Shown piece by piece: positions 2,899 to 8,588 of a stretch of 20,638 bases of DNA. Both the position numbers and the translations under genes were made by a program. This stretch comes from Flavobacterium psychrophilum (GTDB lineage: Bacteria > Bacteroidota > Bacteroidia > Flavobacteriales > Flavobacteriaceae): the NCBI GenBank assembly GCA_945866505.1, contig CAMBHH010000038.1, positions 1-20,638 of the forward strand, read 5' to 3'. The notes below the pieces were generated by a model. It saw nothing but the letters and a program-made list of their open reading frames with translations, had not been told where the DNA came from and searched no databases. Numbering within the stretch: position 1 is the first letter of the stretch; each line of letters starts with the position of its first letter.

Positions 2899-3495
2899 TT
2901 AATCTATAAAAACTTCGGCAACATTAAAACTCATTTCAGGAAACAGCGGACTATTCACTAAACCTTCTTCGGCGATGGGTTTTAGTCCGATGTATTTGTC
3001 GTTTTGGAGGGTATAAATTATGATTGATTTTTGGAAAGGTTCTACTATCCAATATTCTTTTACGCCGTTTTCTTCATACAAATCAAACTTGATATCCATT
3101 TCTTTTTTTGAATTTCCAGGTGAAAGGATTTCAACAATTAAATCGGGAGATCCAAGACAACCTCTTTCGTCTAGTTTGTCCTTGTCGCAAATTACACAAA
3201 TATCGGGTTGAAATACGGTTGAAATTTCTTTATCTGAAGTGCTTTTTTTGTAATTAATTAACCGCACATCAAATGGAGCGTAATATATATTACAAGGTTT
3301 ATTTTCGAAAAAACGATCGAATTTCCGGAATATTTTTGCTGAAATCTCCTGATGTTTTCTGCTTGGAGCAGGACTCATTTTGAAGATTTTTCCTTTCAAA
3401 ATTTCTAATCTTTCTTGAAAATCCCAAGTGAGATAATCTGCATAAGTATAGGATTTAGTAAGGTCTAAAGTGTTGATATCAGTTATTGCAGCCAT
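2899..3495 (-). CDS. Uma2-family (DUF820) PD-(D/E)XK nuclease-like protein
   Basis: 198 residues, normal for Uma2. The fold family is recognised by FQPDI (D98), the strand DLIVEILSPGNS (E122) and the segment DIKFDLYEENGVKEYWIVEP (134-153), which is the hallmark of this family. D98 and E122 are the expected metal ligands of the restriction-endonuclease-like fold. The cellular role of Uma2 proteins is poorly known. No partner toxin, transposase or antitoxin is adjacent. The gene follows the terminator behind sufD, has its own -7-like box at 3516-3523, and lies between intact sufD and the duplicated sufD end, so it appears to be an accessory acquisition and not part of iron-sulfur assembly. The ATG start is the first in frame. 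Confidence 0.85.
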   Translation of the reverse strand: MAAITDINTLDLTKSYTYADYLTWDFQERLEILKGKIFKMSPAPSRKHQEISAKIFRKFDRFFENKPCNIYYAPFDVRLINYKKSTSDKEISTVFQPDICVICDKDKLDERGCLGSPDLIVEILSPGNSKKEMDIKFDLYEENGVKEYWIVEPFQKSIIIYTLQNDKYIGLKPIAEEGLVNSPLFPEMSFNVAEVFID

Positions 3496-3523: not shown

Positions 3524-3553
3524 CTGATTTTTTTCTATGTTGGTTTTTTCGCC

Positions 3554-3682
3554 CCTGATAGAAATGGAAAGCCTTTTGCAGCATTACTGTCATTTTTGAA
3601 ACAAAAAAGAGCGACCAGCGGAAGCTCCTTTATTGTTTTTAGAAAATGCTGTAATACCAAAAAGCTTGAAATGAATAGCAGG
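3554..3682. repeat. Imperfect extragenic palindromic element
   Basis: The spacer between sufD and the Uma2 gene is a nested imperfect palindrome. The outer arms start with CCTG (3554-3557) and end with CAGG (3679-3682); the arms pair only in part, for example AAGC and TTTT blocks. An inner pair CAGCATT (3579-3585) and AATGCTG (3645-3651) is perfect. The centre holds the terminator-like hairpin at 3598-3640. From memory this resembles a dispersed intergenic element of Flavobacterium genomes (CCTGATAGAA ... ATAGCAGG), but a genome-wide search would be needed to show that. Confidence 0.5.
3598..3640 (-). terminator. Terminator-like hairpin after sufD
   Basis: On the minus strand an A-rich tract leads into GAGC, an 11-nt loop, then GCTC followed by TTTTTTG. 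The A-rich and T-rich flanks extend the stem (3598-3612 with 3624-3640). It starts about 60 bp past the sufD stop and should end the suf transcript before the Uma2 gene. Confidence 0.6.
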
Positions 3683-3698
3683 ATTAGGCACTATTAAT

Positions 3699-5015
3699 CT
3701 ACAAATCAAATCCAATTTTCACACCCAGTTTATTAGCGATAATCTTGGTAATTCTTTGTTTCAATTCTGGAATTTTGATGTTTTCTATAACTGCATTCGA
3801 GAAAGCGTACATCAATAAGGCTTTGGCTTCTTTCTTAGGAATTCCACGTTGTTGCATATAGAATAGTGCGGTTTCGTCTAATTGTCCAACGGTGCAACCG
3901 TGAGAACATTTTACGTCATCGGCAAAAATCTCAAGTTGTGGTTTGGCATTTATCGTTGATTTGTTGCCCAACAAAATGTTGTTACTTTTTTGGAAAGCGT
4001 TGGTTTTTTGCGCTTCTTTTTCCACGAAAATCTTTCCGTTAAAAACGCCAGTAGCATTATCAGAAAAAATTCCTTTATAATCTTGAAAGCTTTCGCAATT
4101 TGGAGTAGCGTGATGCACTAAAGTATAATGATCCACGTGTTGTTTCTCACCAATAATCGTGATTCCGTTGAGCGTGCTAGTCAATCTTTCGCCAAAATGA
4201 TAGAAATTTAGGTTGTTTCTGGTCAAATTTCCTCCAAACGAGAAGGTTTGAACAGATACGTGACTTTCTTGTTTTTGGGAAACGTAAGTATTGTCGATTA
4301 AATTGGCCTCGTTATTGTCATTCTGGATTTTATAATAATCTACGATAGCCCGTTTTTGTGCAAAAATCTCGGTAACCGAATTGGTCAAAACTGGGTTTTC
4401 GTTCAAACTTTGATGTCTTTCGATGATCTGAACATGTGAATTTTCGCCCACAATGACCAAATTTCTTGGCTGAACCAAAAGAGCTGCTTCATTACCCGTC
4501 GAGAAATACATAATCTCGATGGGTTTGTTGACCACTTTGCTTTTGGGGATGTTGATGTAGGCTCCTTCATTGGCGAAAGCCGTATTTAAAGAAGTCAAAC
4601 TCTCGTCTTTATTGGCAATTTTGTTAAAATACGTGTCAATCACCATTTTGTATTTTGGTTTGTTCAATGCCGATGACATTAAGCAAATATCCAATCCTTC
4701 GTGTGTGGTTGAAGATAAATTCGAGCTAAAAACACCGTCAATAAAGACCACTTTAAAAGTATCAATCTCGTGGATGAAATATTTTTTTACATCCTTAAAT
4801 TCTATTGAGTTTTCGTGTTTTGGAAAAACTGTAAAGTCATTTTTTAGGATGGCATTTAGCGAAGTATATTTCCAGGATTCTTCTTTTTTAGTTGGGAAGC
4901 CTTTATTTTCAAAGTTTTTTATAGCCGAAGTTCTCAAATCGTGAAGTTCTGAATGAACATCAACTTGCTCTTCGAAAGCCATGAAAGAGGAAAGTAATTT
5001 TTCTTTTAGTTCCAT
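3699..5015 (-). CDS. sufD: SufD, scaffold subunit of the SufBCD iron-sulfur assembly complex
   Basis: 438 residues, the normal SufD length. SufD pairs with SufB on the SufC ATPase dimer and helps assemble Fe-S clusters in the cytoplasm. The N-terminal region contains FPTKKEESWKYTSL, typical of SufD. The C-terminal core FADDVKCSHGCTVGQLDE (from residue 364) holds H372 in CSHGC, equivalent to the histidine implicated in cluster assembly in E. coli SufD, followed by LFYMQQRGIPKKEAKALL. It is downstream of sufC with a 73-bp spacer made of short tandem repeats. The last 135 bp are duplicated at 2750-2884, so the present 3' end may have been supplied by recombination. The reading frame is intact. 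No sufS or sufE follows. Confidence 0.96.
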   Translation of the reverse strand: MELKEKLLSSFMAFEEQVDVHSELHDLRTSAIKNFENKGFPTKKEESWKYTSLNAILKNDFTVFPKHENSIEFKDVKKYFIHEIDTFKVVFIDGVFSSNLSSTTHEGLDICLMSSALNKPKYKMVIDTYFNKIANKDESLTSLNTAFANEGAYINIPKSKVVNKPIEIMYFSTGNEAALLVQPRNLVIVGENSHVQIIERHQSLNENPVLTNSVTEIFAQKRAIVDYYKIQNDNNEANLIDNTYVSQKQESHVSVQTFSFGGNLTRNNLNFYHFGERLTSTLNGITIIGEKQHVDHYTLVHHATPNCESFQDYKGIFSDNATGVFNGKIFVEKEAQKTNAFQKSNNILLGNKSTINAKPQLEIFADDVKCSHGCTVGQLDETALFYMQQRGIPKKEAKALLMYAFSNAVIENIKIPELKQRITKIIANKLGVKIGFDL

Positions 5016-5853: not shown

Positions 5854-6126
5854 TTATTCGTAATGACCTTTTAATGATAAAATGTCTAATATTTCAATTG
5901 TATTTTCTTCTGTAACTCTATATATAATTCGATGTTCTTGATTGATTCTTCTTGACCAGCGACCAGTTAAATTATATTTTAAAGGCTCTGGCTTTCCAAT
6001 TCCTTCAAAAGGATGCAATGTAATATCTTCGATCAAAGCAGAAATTTTATTCATTATTGCTTTATTTCCAGATTTTTTCCAATATTCTCTGTCTTTTTGA
6101 GCTTTTTCTGAATAAATTACTTCCAC
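5854..6126 (-). CDS. yoeB: YoeB/Txe-family toxin (ribosome-dependent mRNA endonuclease)
   Basis: 90 residues. YoeB toxins enter the ribosomal A site and cut mRNA near start codons. The conserved core FEGIGKPEPLKYNLTGRWSR and QEHRIIYRV matches E. coli YoeB closely. The catalytic residues have clear equivalents: E47 in KPEPL, R66 in QEHR and H88 in the C-terminal GHYE, so the toxin looks active. The start is GTG at 6124-6126, inside the end of the antitoxin gene (10-bp overlap), which gives coupled translation with antitoxin first. The stop is 12 bp before sufC. Confidence 0.93.
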   Translation of the reverse strand: MEVIYSEKAQKDREYWKKSGNKAIMNKISALIEDITLHPFEGIGKPEPLKYNLTGRWSRRINQEHRIIYRVTEENTIEILDILSLKGHYE

Positions 6127-6311
6127 AAATCTTCTAATTTGATTTTTATTCCTTTTCCATCTTTAATGCTTTGTTCAGCTTCCAAAATTTCTTTTACAAA
6201 TTCAGGATTATACGGTTTGTCTTCTTTTTCAATTTCAAAACCTAATGATTTTGCCAATGATTTTAATACTGGTAAATCTTTTTTCTTAACGTTTTTTAAA
6301 ATGAGTTCCAT
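6117..6311 (-). CDS. Antitoxin partner of the YoeB-type toxin
   Basis: 64 residues, upstream of the toxin and overlapping it by 10 bp, the standard antitoxin-first arrangement. The N-terminal part (MELILKNVKKKDLPVLKSLAKSL) is predicted helical; the C-terminal part is charged (KPYNPEFVKEILEAEQSIKDGK) and ends in LEDLW, as expected for a disordered toxin-neutralising tail. It is not a clear YefM or Phd: no ribbon-helix-helix or Phd fold can be identified by eye. It looks like the short antitoxins paired with YoeB/RelE-type toxins in Bacteroidota. If it does not bind DNA well, the module may rely on the suf promoter. The start ATG is 41 bp after the sufB stop. Confidence 0.8.
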   Translation of the reverse strand: MELILKNVKKKDLPVLKSLAKSLGFEIEKEDKPYNPEFVKEILEAEQSIKDGKGIKIKLEDLWK

Positions 6312-6352: not shown

Positions 6353-7801
6353 TTAACCTACTGAACCTTCAAGTGAAATTTCCAATAACTTCTGTGCTTC
6401 AACTGCAAATTCCATCGGTAATTTGTTCAACACGTCTTTGCTGAAACCGTTTACAATTAAGGCAATGGCTTTTTCTGTTGGAATTCCACGTTGGTTGCAA
6501 TAGAAAACTTGGTCTTCACCAATTTTACTCGTGGTAGCTTCGTGTTCTATTTTTGCCGATGGATTTTTGCTTTCGATATACGGAAAAGTATTGGCGCTGC
6601 AATTATTTCCCATTAATAAGGAATCGCATTGCGAAAAGTTCCTTGCATTGTCTGCATTTGGACCAATTTTTACTAAACCTCTATAACTATTGTGTGATTT
6701 TCCGGCAGAAATTCCTTTGGAAATAATCGTTGATTTGGTGTTTTTGCCAAGGTGAATCATCTTGGTTCCGGTGTCGGCTTGCTGAAAATTAGTTGTTACT
6801 GCAATAGAATAAAATTCGCCCACAGAATTATCTCCTTTTAAAATAACCGATGGATATTTCCAAGTAATCGCGGAACCTGTTTCGACTTGTGTCCAAGATA
6901 TTTTAGCATTTTTTTCGCACAAACCTCTTTTTGTCACAAAATTGAAAACACCGCCTATTCCTTCCTTGTTTCCTGGATACCAGTTTTGTACGGTAGAATA
7001 TTTAATTTCGGCACCATCCAAAGCAATCAATTCAACACAAGCAGCGTGCAATTGATTTTCGTCACGACTTGGTGCGGTGCAACCTTCTAGATAACTTACA
7101 TAACTGCCTTCATCTGCAATCAGCAGTGTTCTTTCAAATTGTCCAGTTCCGGCTTGATTGATACGGAAGTAAGTCGATAATTCCATTGGACAATGAACCC
7201 CTTTCGGAATATAACAAAAACTTCCATCTGAGAAAACTGCCGAATTTAAAGCGGCATAGAAGTTGTCTTTTTGCGGAATAACAGTACCAAGATATTTTCG
7301 GACTAATTCTGGATGTTCTTTAATTGCTTCGGAAATACTCATAAAGATAATTCCTTTTTCGCCCAATGTTTTCTTAAACGTTGTCGCTACCGATACAGAA
7401 TCAACTACAATATCCATAGCGACATTGTTCATCATTTTTTGTTCATCGACAGAGATTCCTAACTTTTTGTACATTTCTAAAAGTTCAGGATCTACATCGT
7501 CCAATGTTTTATTGGGATCGATTGCTTTTGGAGCAGAATAATAGGAAATCGATTGAAAATCAGGCTTGGTATAATGCACATTTGCCCATTCAGGTTCCTT
7601 CATTTGTTCCCAAGCACGAAAAGCCTCGATGCGCCAATCGGTCATCCATTGTGGCTCTTCTTTTCTGTGGGAAATGGCACGAACAATATCCTCGTTCAAA
7701 CCTATAGGGAATGTATCCGATTCTATATCAGTATAAAATCCGTACTCGTATTCTTTGGTTTCAAGTTCGACTCTTAAATGGTCTTCGGTGTATTTGCTCA
7801 T
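6353..7801 (-). CDS. sufB: SufB, core scaffold of the SufBCD iron-sulfur assembly complex
   Basis: 482 residues, the normal SufB length. SufB receives sulfur and forms the nascent Fe-S cluster with SufC and SufD. Typical segments are the N-terminal [23 protein letters not shown], the central [46 protein letters not shown], and the C-terminal [39 protein letters not shown] followed by [13 protein letters not shown]. Conserved cysteines are present in these blocks. It is separated from the sufA-like gene by the S23 cassette and from sufC by the toxin-antitoxin pair, although in related bacteria these genes are normally directly adjacent. The frame is intact. Confidence 0.97.
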
Positions 7802-7810
7802 TTAATTATT

Positions 7811-7844
7811 AAATTTAAAGATTAAAAAATTCAAAGATTGAACG
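7811..7844 (+). repeat. Inverted repeat arm, 3' side of the S23 gene
   Basis: 34 bp, A/T-rich, directly after the S23 stop codon. It is the reverse complement of 8217-8250 with four mismatches (arm positions 9, 14, 26 and 33). Confidence 0.8.
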
Positions 7845-8213
7845 CTAATCTTTAGTATTACTATTTAGGTATTTTATGAAATTCGAAAGGTTTTGAGATA
7901 TTTCAACAATTACATCATAGCAAATTTTAATGCTATCTTGATTACACAACTGCAATTCTGTCGATAATATCAACATATTTCTAACTTCTGCGCAACTGCC
8001 TTTCGAATATTTCAAGTATCTTATAAACTGCCTATTATTATTGTATTCCGAACCCTCAGCAATATTATTTGTAATTGATAAAAACGCTCTTTTTAACTGG
8101 TCTTTAAACCCATATTCTTTATCAAAAGATTTATTATTCAATAATTCAAAAACTAATTTTGTCAAGACTATTCCTTTTTTGTGAACTTCGAATTCTTCAA
8201 ACGATTTTGTCAT
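7845..8213 (-). CDS. Four-helix-bundle protein (S23/IVP family)
   Basis: 122 residues, normal for the family of small four-helix proteins first found encoded by intervening sequences inside 23S rRNA genes. The segment RAFLSITNNIAEGSEY (about residues 43-58) is the family signature (IxxNIAEG), followed by FIRYLKYSKGSCAEVRNML (63-81). The whole protein is predicted helical with no signal peptide or membrane segment. The molecular function of free-standing members is unknown. The gene lies inside the suf operon, co-directional with it, and is tightly bracketed by 34-bp inverted repeats, so it is likely an insertion using the suf transcript and not an iron-sulfur gene. Confidence 0.87.
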   Translation of the reverse strand: MTKSFEEFEVHKKGIVLTKLVFELLNNKSFDKEYGFKDQLKRAFLSITNNIAEGSEYNNNRQFIRYLKYSKGSCAEVRNMLILSTELQLCNQDSIKICYDVIVEISQNLSNFIKYLNSNTKD

Positions 8214-8216
8214 AAT

Positions 8217-8250
8217 CTTTCAATTTTTGAATTTTTGAATCATTAAATTT
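8217..8250 (-). repeat. Inverted repeat arm, 5' side of the S23 gene
   Basis: 34 bp ending 3 bp upstream of the S23 ATG; pairs with 7811-7844 in the transcript at 30 of 34 positions. The arm contains a short internal direct repeat (ATTCAAAA). Simple A/T-rich spacers of this flavour occur elsewhere in such genomes, so part of the similarity could reflect low complexity. Confidence 0.75.
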
Positions 8251-8258
8251 TTCAATTT

Positions 8259-8588
8259 CTAAAGTGAAAACGATTCGCCGCAACCACAAGTTCTGCTCGC
8301 ATTTGGATTATTAAATACAAATCCTTTTCCATTTAATCCACCTGAAAATTCTAATATGGTTCCTGCAAGATAGAGGAACGATTTTTTTTCCACGGCAATT
8401 TTTATATTATTGTCTTCAAAAACTTTATCGTTTTCTCCGATTTGTTTATCGAAAGTCAAGTCATATGACAATCCTGAGCAACCACCAGATTTTACGCCTA
8501 CTCGAACATAATCTTGTGCGGAGTCAAAGCCATCGTCTTTCATCATATCGACAATTTTTTTACTTGCAGATTCAGATACTTGTATCAT
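8259..8588 (-). CDS. sufA: SufA/IscA-type (HesB family) iron-sulfur carrier
   Basis: 109 residues, the normal A-type carrier length. These proteins bind a 2Fe-2S or 4Fe-4S cluster and hand it to target proteins. The three cluster-binding cysteines are in place: C37 in SGGCSG, and C101 and C103 in the C-terminal CGCG. ASKKIVDMM and FNNPNASRTCGCG are family features. It is the first gene of the suf operon, 32 bp downstream of a good promoter, and is followed by the S23 cassette and sufB. The name sufA rests on its place in the operon; by sequence alone iscA or erpA would be possible. Confidence 0.93.
   Translation of the reverse strand: MIQVSESASKKIVDMMKDDGFDSAQDYVRVGVKSGGCSGLSYDLTFDKQIGENDKVFEDNNIKIAVEKKSFLYLAGTILEFSGGLNGKGFVFNNPNASRTCGCGESFSL

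Follow-up and report, generated by a model that had tools for sequence, protein, structure and literature searches.

An S23 gene between complementary arms in the suf operon

The window analysed here, the whole stretch of 20,638 nucleotides of the Flavobacterium psychrophilum contig CAMBHH010000038.1, carries suf genes on its minus strand. Between sufA and sufB lies a gene for a four-helix-bundle protein of the S23 type, and the spacers on its two sides are occupied by complementary arms composed of short units. Coordinates refer to the window.

8259..8588, minus strand: sufA-type iron-sulfur assembly gene, the upstream neighbour (PF01521, 58.4 bits; TIGR00049, 110.5 bits)
8214..8258, minus strand: 5' arm and spacer, units of about 8 nt (RATTNAAA-like), core at 8217-8250
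7845..8213, minus strand: S23 / 23S rRNA intervening-sequence-type four-helix-bundle protein, 122 aa (PF05635, TIGR02436)
7802..7844, minus strand: 3' arm and spacer, inverted array (TTTNAATY-like), core at 7811-7844
6353..7801, minus strand: sufB, the downstream neighbour (NF008773, 885.9 bits; TIGR01980, 622.1 bits)

The S23 gene runs from an ATG at 8211-8213 to a TAG stop codon at 7845-7847, is co-oriented with sufA and sufB, and is the single open reading frame (ORF) of at least 80 aa in the unit. Its product reaches profile scores of 90.3 bits with PF05635 (cut-off 33.8) and 85 bits with TIGR02436 (cut-off 24), and has one sequence-level PDB match, 2gsc. The Avd proteins of diversity-generating retroelements are related four-helix-bundle proteins. 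These scores, along with those of the neighbours, bear out the preliminary description, in which an S23 gene had been placed between sufA and sufB. The pairing of the arms reported there was reproduced by recomputation, with 30 of 34 positions complementary (7811-7844 against 8217-8250), and the spacings were all as given: the unit stands 9 bp from the sufB ATG and 8 bp from the sufA stop, and 3 bp separate the arm from the S23 ATG. A repeat search extends the arm pair to 46 nt at 80% (7804-7849/8212-8257). On the sense strand, the 5' arm contains 4 G and 2 C and the 3' arm 4 C and 2 G, which are small counts.

It had been cautioned that the A/T-rich content weakens the case. None of 5000 dinucleotide shuffles reached the local alignment score of the window spacers (24.5), their maximum being 20.5; when genuine spacers between co-directional genes of a 400-kb flavobacterial stretch were paired, 2 of 4970 combinations did. 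The minus-strand RNA of positions 7800-8262 was predicted to fold at -87.1 kcal/mol (z = -2.24), an energy equalled or bettered by 2 of 100 shuffles. The arms are paired only partly in this fold: by eye, they form the outermost stem, with the 5' arm engaging the S23 gene through its inner half. The two outcomes named beforehand as counter-evidence, non-complementary flanks in all relatives and shuffled spacers pairing equally well, were not seen. The unit shares with the intervening sequences of 23S rRNA the complementary ends around an insert, and differs from them in lying between sufA and sufB, outside any rRNA gene.

Other oddities were observed in the same operon. A Txe/YoeB-type toxin gene (5854-6126, minus strand, PF06769, 94 bits) lies between sufB and sufC, and just upstream of it a short ORF, probably the antitoxin, starts near 6311 as judged by eye; together (5854-6311, minus strand) they form a second insertion in the suf operon. 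Two copies of the sufD 3' end exist (2747-2884 and 3696-3833; 138 nt, 93% identical), and they frame a Uma2-family gene (2899-3495) and a match to the Flavo-1 RNA (3546-3689), the sole Rfam gathering match in the window. An insertion or duplication seems to have occurred where the operon ends.

S23 genes with inverted word arrays in operon spacers

A scan with the window protein retained 80 of 97 relatives, all of them close to it, at the sites trpD-trpC (31), sufA-sufB (27) and murE-mraY (21), with 1 unresolved. Flank complementarity exceeded 12.5 in 73 of 76 complete S23 ORFs of this set and in 16 of 190 other genes, S23 being excluded from this control; of ten genes inspected among the best-scoring of the 190, some are flanked on both sides by hairpins of their own. 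In an earlier control of 27 other ORFs of the fetched loci, from which second S23 genes had not been excluded, the mean was 12.8, the median 9.5 and the 95th percentile 28.9. As a separate observation, hairpins of the same word (GTTTCAAG-like; ACCTGACAGGTTTT-like) stand on both sides of one gene, without S23, in the loci L016 (about 1322-1889) and L007 (about 4293-4908).

The sample was widened beyond close similarity to the window protein by taking all PF05635 matches of 14 flavobacterial genomes, which had been picked for holding a relative of that protein, so that presence in 14 of 14 is by construction. Each genome holds 4-13 matches (120 rows), of which 117 were used, including one below the family cut-off, after the omission of 3 second pieces of the same genes. 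The 117 loci represent 59 distinct pairs of upstream and downstream neighbours, and the host operons include suf, trp, mur, his, sdh, groES-groEL and car (neighbours named by eye except sufA and sufB).

Complementarity between the flanks proved to be specific to each locus. The score of the 5' flank against the reverse complement of its own 3' flank averaged 17.4, with a maximum of 9.85 over 10,000 re-pairings, and remained at 17.5 (re-paired maximum 10.6) when one locus per context was kept, 45 of the 59 contexts lying above the 95th percentile. The search for S23 genes with matching flanks in relatives, as proposed in the preliminary description, revealed a recurrent arrangement, found at 88 of 117 loci in the 14 genomes (above the 95th percentile of swapped flanks; 29 of 117 below). 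Among ordinary genes, scores above 12.5 were reached by 12 of 303 non-S23 genes taken from 400 kb of one genome (Fisher p 4e-51 against the 88 of 117). The predicted energy of the RNA duplex was -22.8 kcal/mol for own arms and -10.7 kcal/mol for swapped arms, while the direct-repeat score averaged 10.8 for own flanks and 8.7 for swapped ones.

In most but not all of the examined copies, S23 shares its reading direction with the genes on either side. This is so at 110 of 117 loci; of the rest, 4 have the downstream gene reversed, 2 have both reversed and 1 is without a downstream call. The comparison with ordinary genes (175 of 305; Fisher p 6e-15) is approximate, as ORFs of at least 80 aa were used for the S23 set and ATG-initiated ORFs of at least 60 aa for the ordinary genes.

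In most but not all copies, words of 7-8 nt form an array in the upstream spacer and the inverse array in the downstream one; they differ between loci while remaining complementary within a locus. AGTC-, GATTAG-, TAGAGAATAG- and CTTAGAACCT-like words, among others, were encountered in the 117 loci, with the inverse opposite in many cases. The idea that the arms are limited to one GATTNAAA word family was rejected on this ground; it had come from the 80 close relatives of the window protein, 79 of which lie at three sites. A 7-8-nt period was significant in 61 of 94 5' flanks (the test covering 94 of the 117 loci) and in 20 of 101 control spacers. The mean GC skew, counted in 90 of the 117 loci, was +0.34 before S23 and -0.38 after it, with -0.05 in control spacers, and both signs were present in 59 of the 90. 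In the 90 loci with scores of at least 12.5, arms start a median of 0.5 nt past the upstream stop and end a median of 4 nt before the next gene; the 5' arm ends a median of 13 nt before the S23 ATG, the median arm length is 36.5 nt (10-90% range 23-59 nt) and the median arm identity is 0.82. The window unit displays the features by which we define an S23 operon-spacer element, with co-orientation to both neighbours and inverted periodic arms that fill the spacers and are G-rich before the gene and C-rich after it. It does not show the conserved ends and the transposase expected of a transposon with terminal inverted repeats, the words being locus-specific and S23 the only ORF of at least 80 aa.

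Outside these genomes, PF05635 was found above cut-off in 220 of 296 Bacteroidota genomes. In 30 Bacteroidota loci, which were the top-scoring matches and not a random sample, own complementarity was 13.1 (permutation maximum 10.0), 9 of 30 loci exceeded 12.5, and both neighbours were co-oriented in 26 of 30. The arm signal across the phylum is thus weaker than in the 14 flavobacterial genomes. Searches of plasmids (11, 31 and 44 records) supplied 24 loci, of which 21 cyanobacterial ones and one of Riemerella were scored, and those of Gemmatirosa and Azospirillum were left unscored. The Riemerella locus scored 20.0. The cyanobacterial loci averaged 15.0 (permutation maximum 12.6), with inverted arms above 12.5 in 11 of 21 and co-oriented neighbours in 15 of 21 according to annotation tables; the loci of Pseudanabaena and Oscillatoria (L324, L346) have long word arrays on both sides which are direct, not inverted, and in the remaining ones matching arms are short or absent. 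After omission of a split gene and a near-duplicate, 19 of the 21 cyanobacterial loci were included in the skew and period analyses, giving a GC skew of +0.51/-0.39 and a significant period in 15 of 19. The window S23 protein had no match in phage records.

We take the sufA-sufB unit to be one member of a multi-copy family of S23 operon-spacer elements.

Inheritance of the units and history of the sufA-sufB junction

The S23 copies examined were mostly inherited in place. On a tree of 104 of the 117 proteins, 17 site changes were counted (minimum 13), against a shuffled mean of 47.7, for the 14 sites with at least three rows. Neither the sufA-sufB copies nor the trpD-trpC copies were resolved as a single clade, and moves of units between sites are possible. 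When pairs at the same site were compared, own arms matched better than crossed arms in 96 of 133: in 30 of 30 pairs with S23 identity below 0.5, in 12 of 13, 10 of 14 and 28 of 37 in the next identity bins, and in 16 of 39 at an identity of at least 0.8, where the difference is gone, as expected. Where S23 genes of close kinship occupy different operons, their words are usually shared. Mean arm similarity between operons, compared over 113 of the 117 loci, was 7.2 at S23 identity below 0.3 (n 2996) and 18.9 at 0.7 or above (n 34), with a rank correlation of only 0.03 over all 6163 pairs; the signal is confined to pairs with an identity above 0.5, of which there are 188, drawn from few clades. 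In the window and its two nearest relatives, the 3' arms are nearly constant and the 5' arms differ, so any base-by-base compensation is loose.

The arrangement sufA-S23-sufB makes up 27 of the 80 kept loci over several genera, including Capnocytophaga and Myroides, and is present in only 3 of the 50 Flavobacterium relatives in which the junction was read, out of 61 genomes searched for SufB. This distribution suggests that an old sufA-sufB unit was often lost. Loss of the S23 gene would leave behind hairpins, scars or short spacers. The 51 junctions, window included, comprise 4 with S23, 10 shorter than 40 nt and 37 of mid-length; 24 of the 37 mid-length spacers, which hold no S23, fold with z below -2, and junction L226 appears by eye to retain an S23 3' end and a 3' arm. 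The unit had been described as a clean insertion into a short spacer. Empty sites of 9-23 nt do occur, in 10 of 51 junctions, but the recent event which this wording suggests is not supported, given the spread of the unit over several genera. The spacers of the Flavobacterium loci L224, L225, L242 and L268 present a different, G+C-richer palindrome with CCCCTAAC-like ends and a common CCTATTTACCCCTAATAGGAG stretch.

An early stop interrupts 9 of the 80 S23 frames. Among 12 chosen intact-frame sufA-sufB homologues, the finite pairwise dN/dS values were 0.06-0.16, with one pair lacking amino-acid changes and several saturated at silent sites, which shows purifying selection on the window S23 protein.

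Pairing of the arms and competing readings

Both the S23 protein family and its occurrence in rRNA inserts are already known. S23-encoding intervening sequences have been described in the 23S rRNA of Leptospira, Coxiella and others (PMC4990558), where, as in the units examined here, an S23 ORF lies between complementary ends able to form a stem, is carried on the transcript of the host and is sporadically distributed. Unlike those inserts, the operon units stand between protein genes, occur in several copies per genome and have arms which are periodic word arrays; moreover, S23 is under purifying selection here, whereas the Coxiella ORF is reported to be in reductive evolution (PMC4990558). 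In the inserts of CPR bacteria, the 23S_rRNA_IVP domain is likewise scattered over several sites, but these are within 16S and 23S rRNA genes and not in operon spacers (PMC11270868).

Genes of the 23S_rRNA_IVP type in cas loci have been listed among CRISPR-Cas-associated functions (PMC3936711). The 3 cyanobacterial S23 genes found here in cas operons resemble them in lying between co-directional genes, including cas10-S23-cmr3 and cas6-S23-cas4. Unlike in that account, inverted arms were recognised at 2 of the 3 (14.5 and 25.0) and direct arrays at the third, and S23 units of the usual operon-spacer kind may therefore account for the IVP genes reported in cas loci. Direct repeats of heptamers, TAACTGA for example, are known from Beggiatoaceae, cyanobacteria and Bacteroidetes (PMC4679880); they too are 7-nt tandem words in spacers, often right before a start codon, in partly the same phyla. 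They are presented there as one word, almost always in direct repeats and with no tie to S23 genes stated in the parts describing them, and the term 'intervening sequence' is absent from the main text (PMC4679880). In the open-licence PMC literature we found no account of S23 genes with locus-specific inverted arrays in operon or mRNA spacers.

We see an evenly balanced case for a co-transcribed S23 operon-spacer element whose arms are able to form a stem. S23 would be expressed from the operon promoter, and in the transcript both arms would pair, so that the S23 cistron would occupy a loop, like the ORF of the 23S rRNA inserts. With S23 looped out by such a stem, the sufA stop and the sufB start would come to lie close to each other; the stem would isolate the insert and provide double-stranded RNA between coding regions, where cutting would be harmless. 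Standing just before the start of S23 and that of the next gene, it could also lower translation of S23 and sufB. Co-orientation, arm polarity and arm position together link the unit to the transcript. In biofilms of F. psychrophilum, a gene with the annotation 23S rRNA-intervening sequence protein was reported as differentially expressed (PMC5787105), which implies that at least one such S23 gene is transcribed. The arms showed no excess of G.U over A.C mismatches (78 and 102; isolated mismatches 46 and 52) and no preference of the duplex for the sense strand, the antisense being if anything stronger (69 and 46 loci), and the pairing gain over swapped arms was alike on both strands. RNA pairing is plausible but unproven, and it is the leading reading. 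The proposal that the design of the 23S insert recurs in an mRNA stands as regards its anatomy and the recurrence of S23 genes with complementary ends in operons, but no strand-specific signal of pairing emerged from the tests made for one. Processing of the stem by RNase III or its control of translation, as suggested there, would be putative roles.

The main rival is an origin of the matching at DNA level, a possibility we take seriously while thinking it rather unlikely, in which the arms would either be the terminal inverted repeats that bound a mobile unit or owe their likeness to template switching or conversion between them, with the RNA stem as a by-product. The strand symmetry of the complementarity, the similar arms seen when close S23 relatives sit in different operons and the S23-less hairpins at the sufA-sufB junction fit it; the lone S23 ORF, ends whose words vary by locus instead of being conserved, and copies which mostly remain in place do not, and the G-rich 5'/C-rich 3' polarity and operon co-orientation point to transcription.

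The boldest of the candidate readings, which we hold to be decidedly unlikely, makes the 5' array a binding site for S23 itself: a ring-shaped multimer on the G-containing 7-8-nt units of its own mRNA would control translation, and the 3' array would compete by pairing. A homologue has been described as a toroidal homopentamer (PMC4990558), and the median arm, ending shortly before the ATG, corresponds to about five units, in line with the observed period and G polarity; however, arm length varies widely, and the protein is only mildly basic (pI 8.4 in the window, median 8.6 among the 117).

It is highly improbable that the stem is a generic operon-spacer hairpin, be it an attenuator, a stabiliser or a processing site, in whose loop S23 merely landed. 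The stable mid-length sufA-sufB spacers without S23 and the hairpins around some other genes are compatible with it, but among closely related S23 genes the arms go with the gene and not with the site, and of the 11 in 99 co-directional spacers in 400 kb that pass the palindrome threshold (about 1 expected), some 8 are terminator-like by eye and one adjoins S23. Chance pairing between A/T-rich spacers is almost certainly not the explanation: the few real spacer pairs reaching the window score are its only argument, against shuffles that never do, locus-specific complementarity over 117 loci and complementary arms also in the G+C-richer cyanobacterial sequences.

A wider view, which we consider unlikely, would unite S23 proteins and inverted arrays of 7-8-nt words in one mobile family across Bacteroidota and Cyanobacteria, in which a putative S23 ring multimer would recognise the G-rich array, be it in its own RNA or in single-stranded DNA; many heptamer-repeat spacers and hairpins would then be relics, and the 23S rRNA inserts and the IVP genes of CRISPR loci special cases.

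S23 proteins, named after inserts in rRNA, are described as having no known function (PMC4990558). If the family of operon-spacer elements holds, S23 genes of Bacteroidota would have a principal location in the spacers of housekeeping operons, and a defined pair of periodic arrays could be the target of the protein, whose function would become directly testable through binding, RNA processing and effects on the host operon. It would also offer an alternative reading for the S23 genes at CRISPR loci, and would link S23 to the short heptamer repeats of the same phyla.
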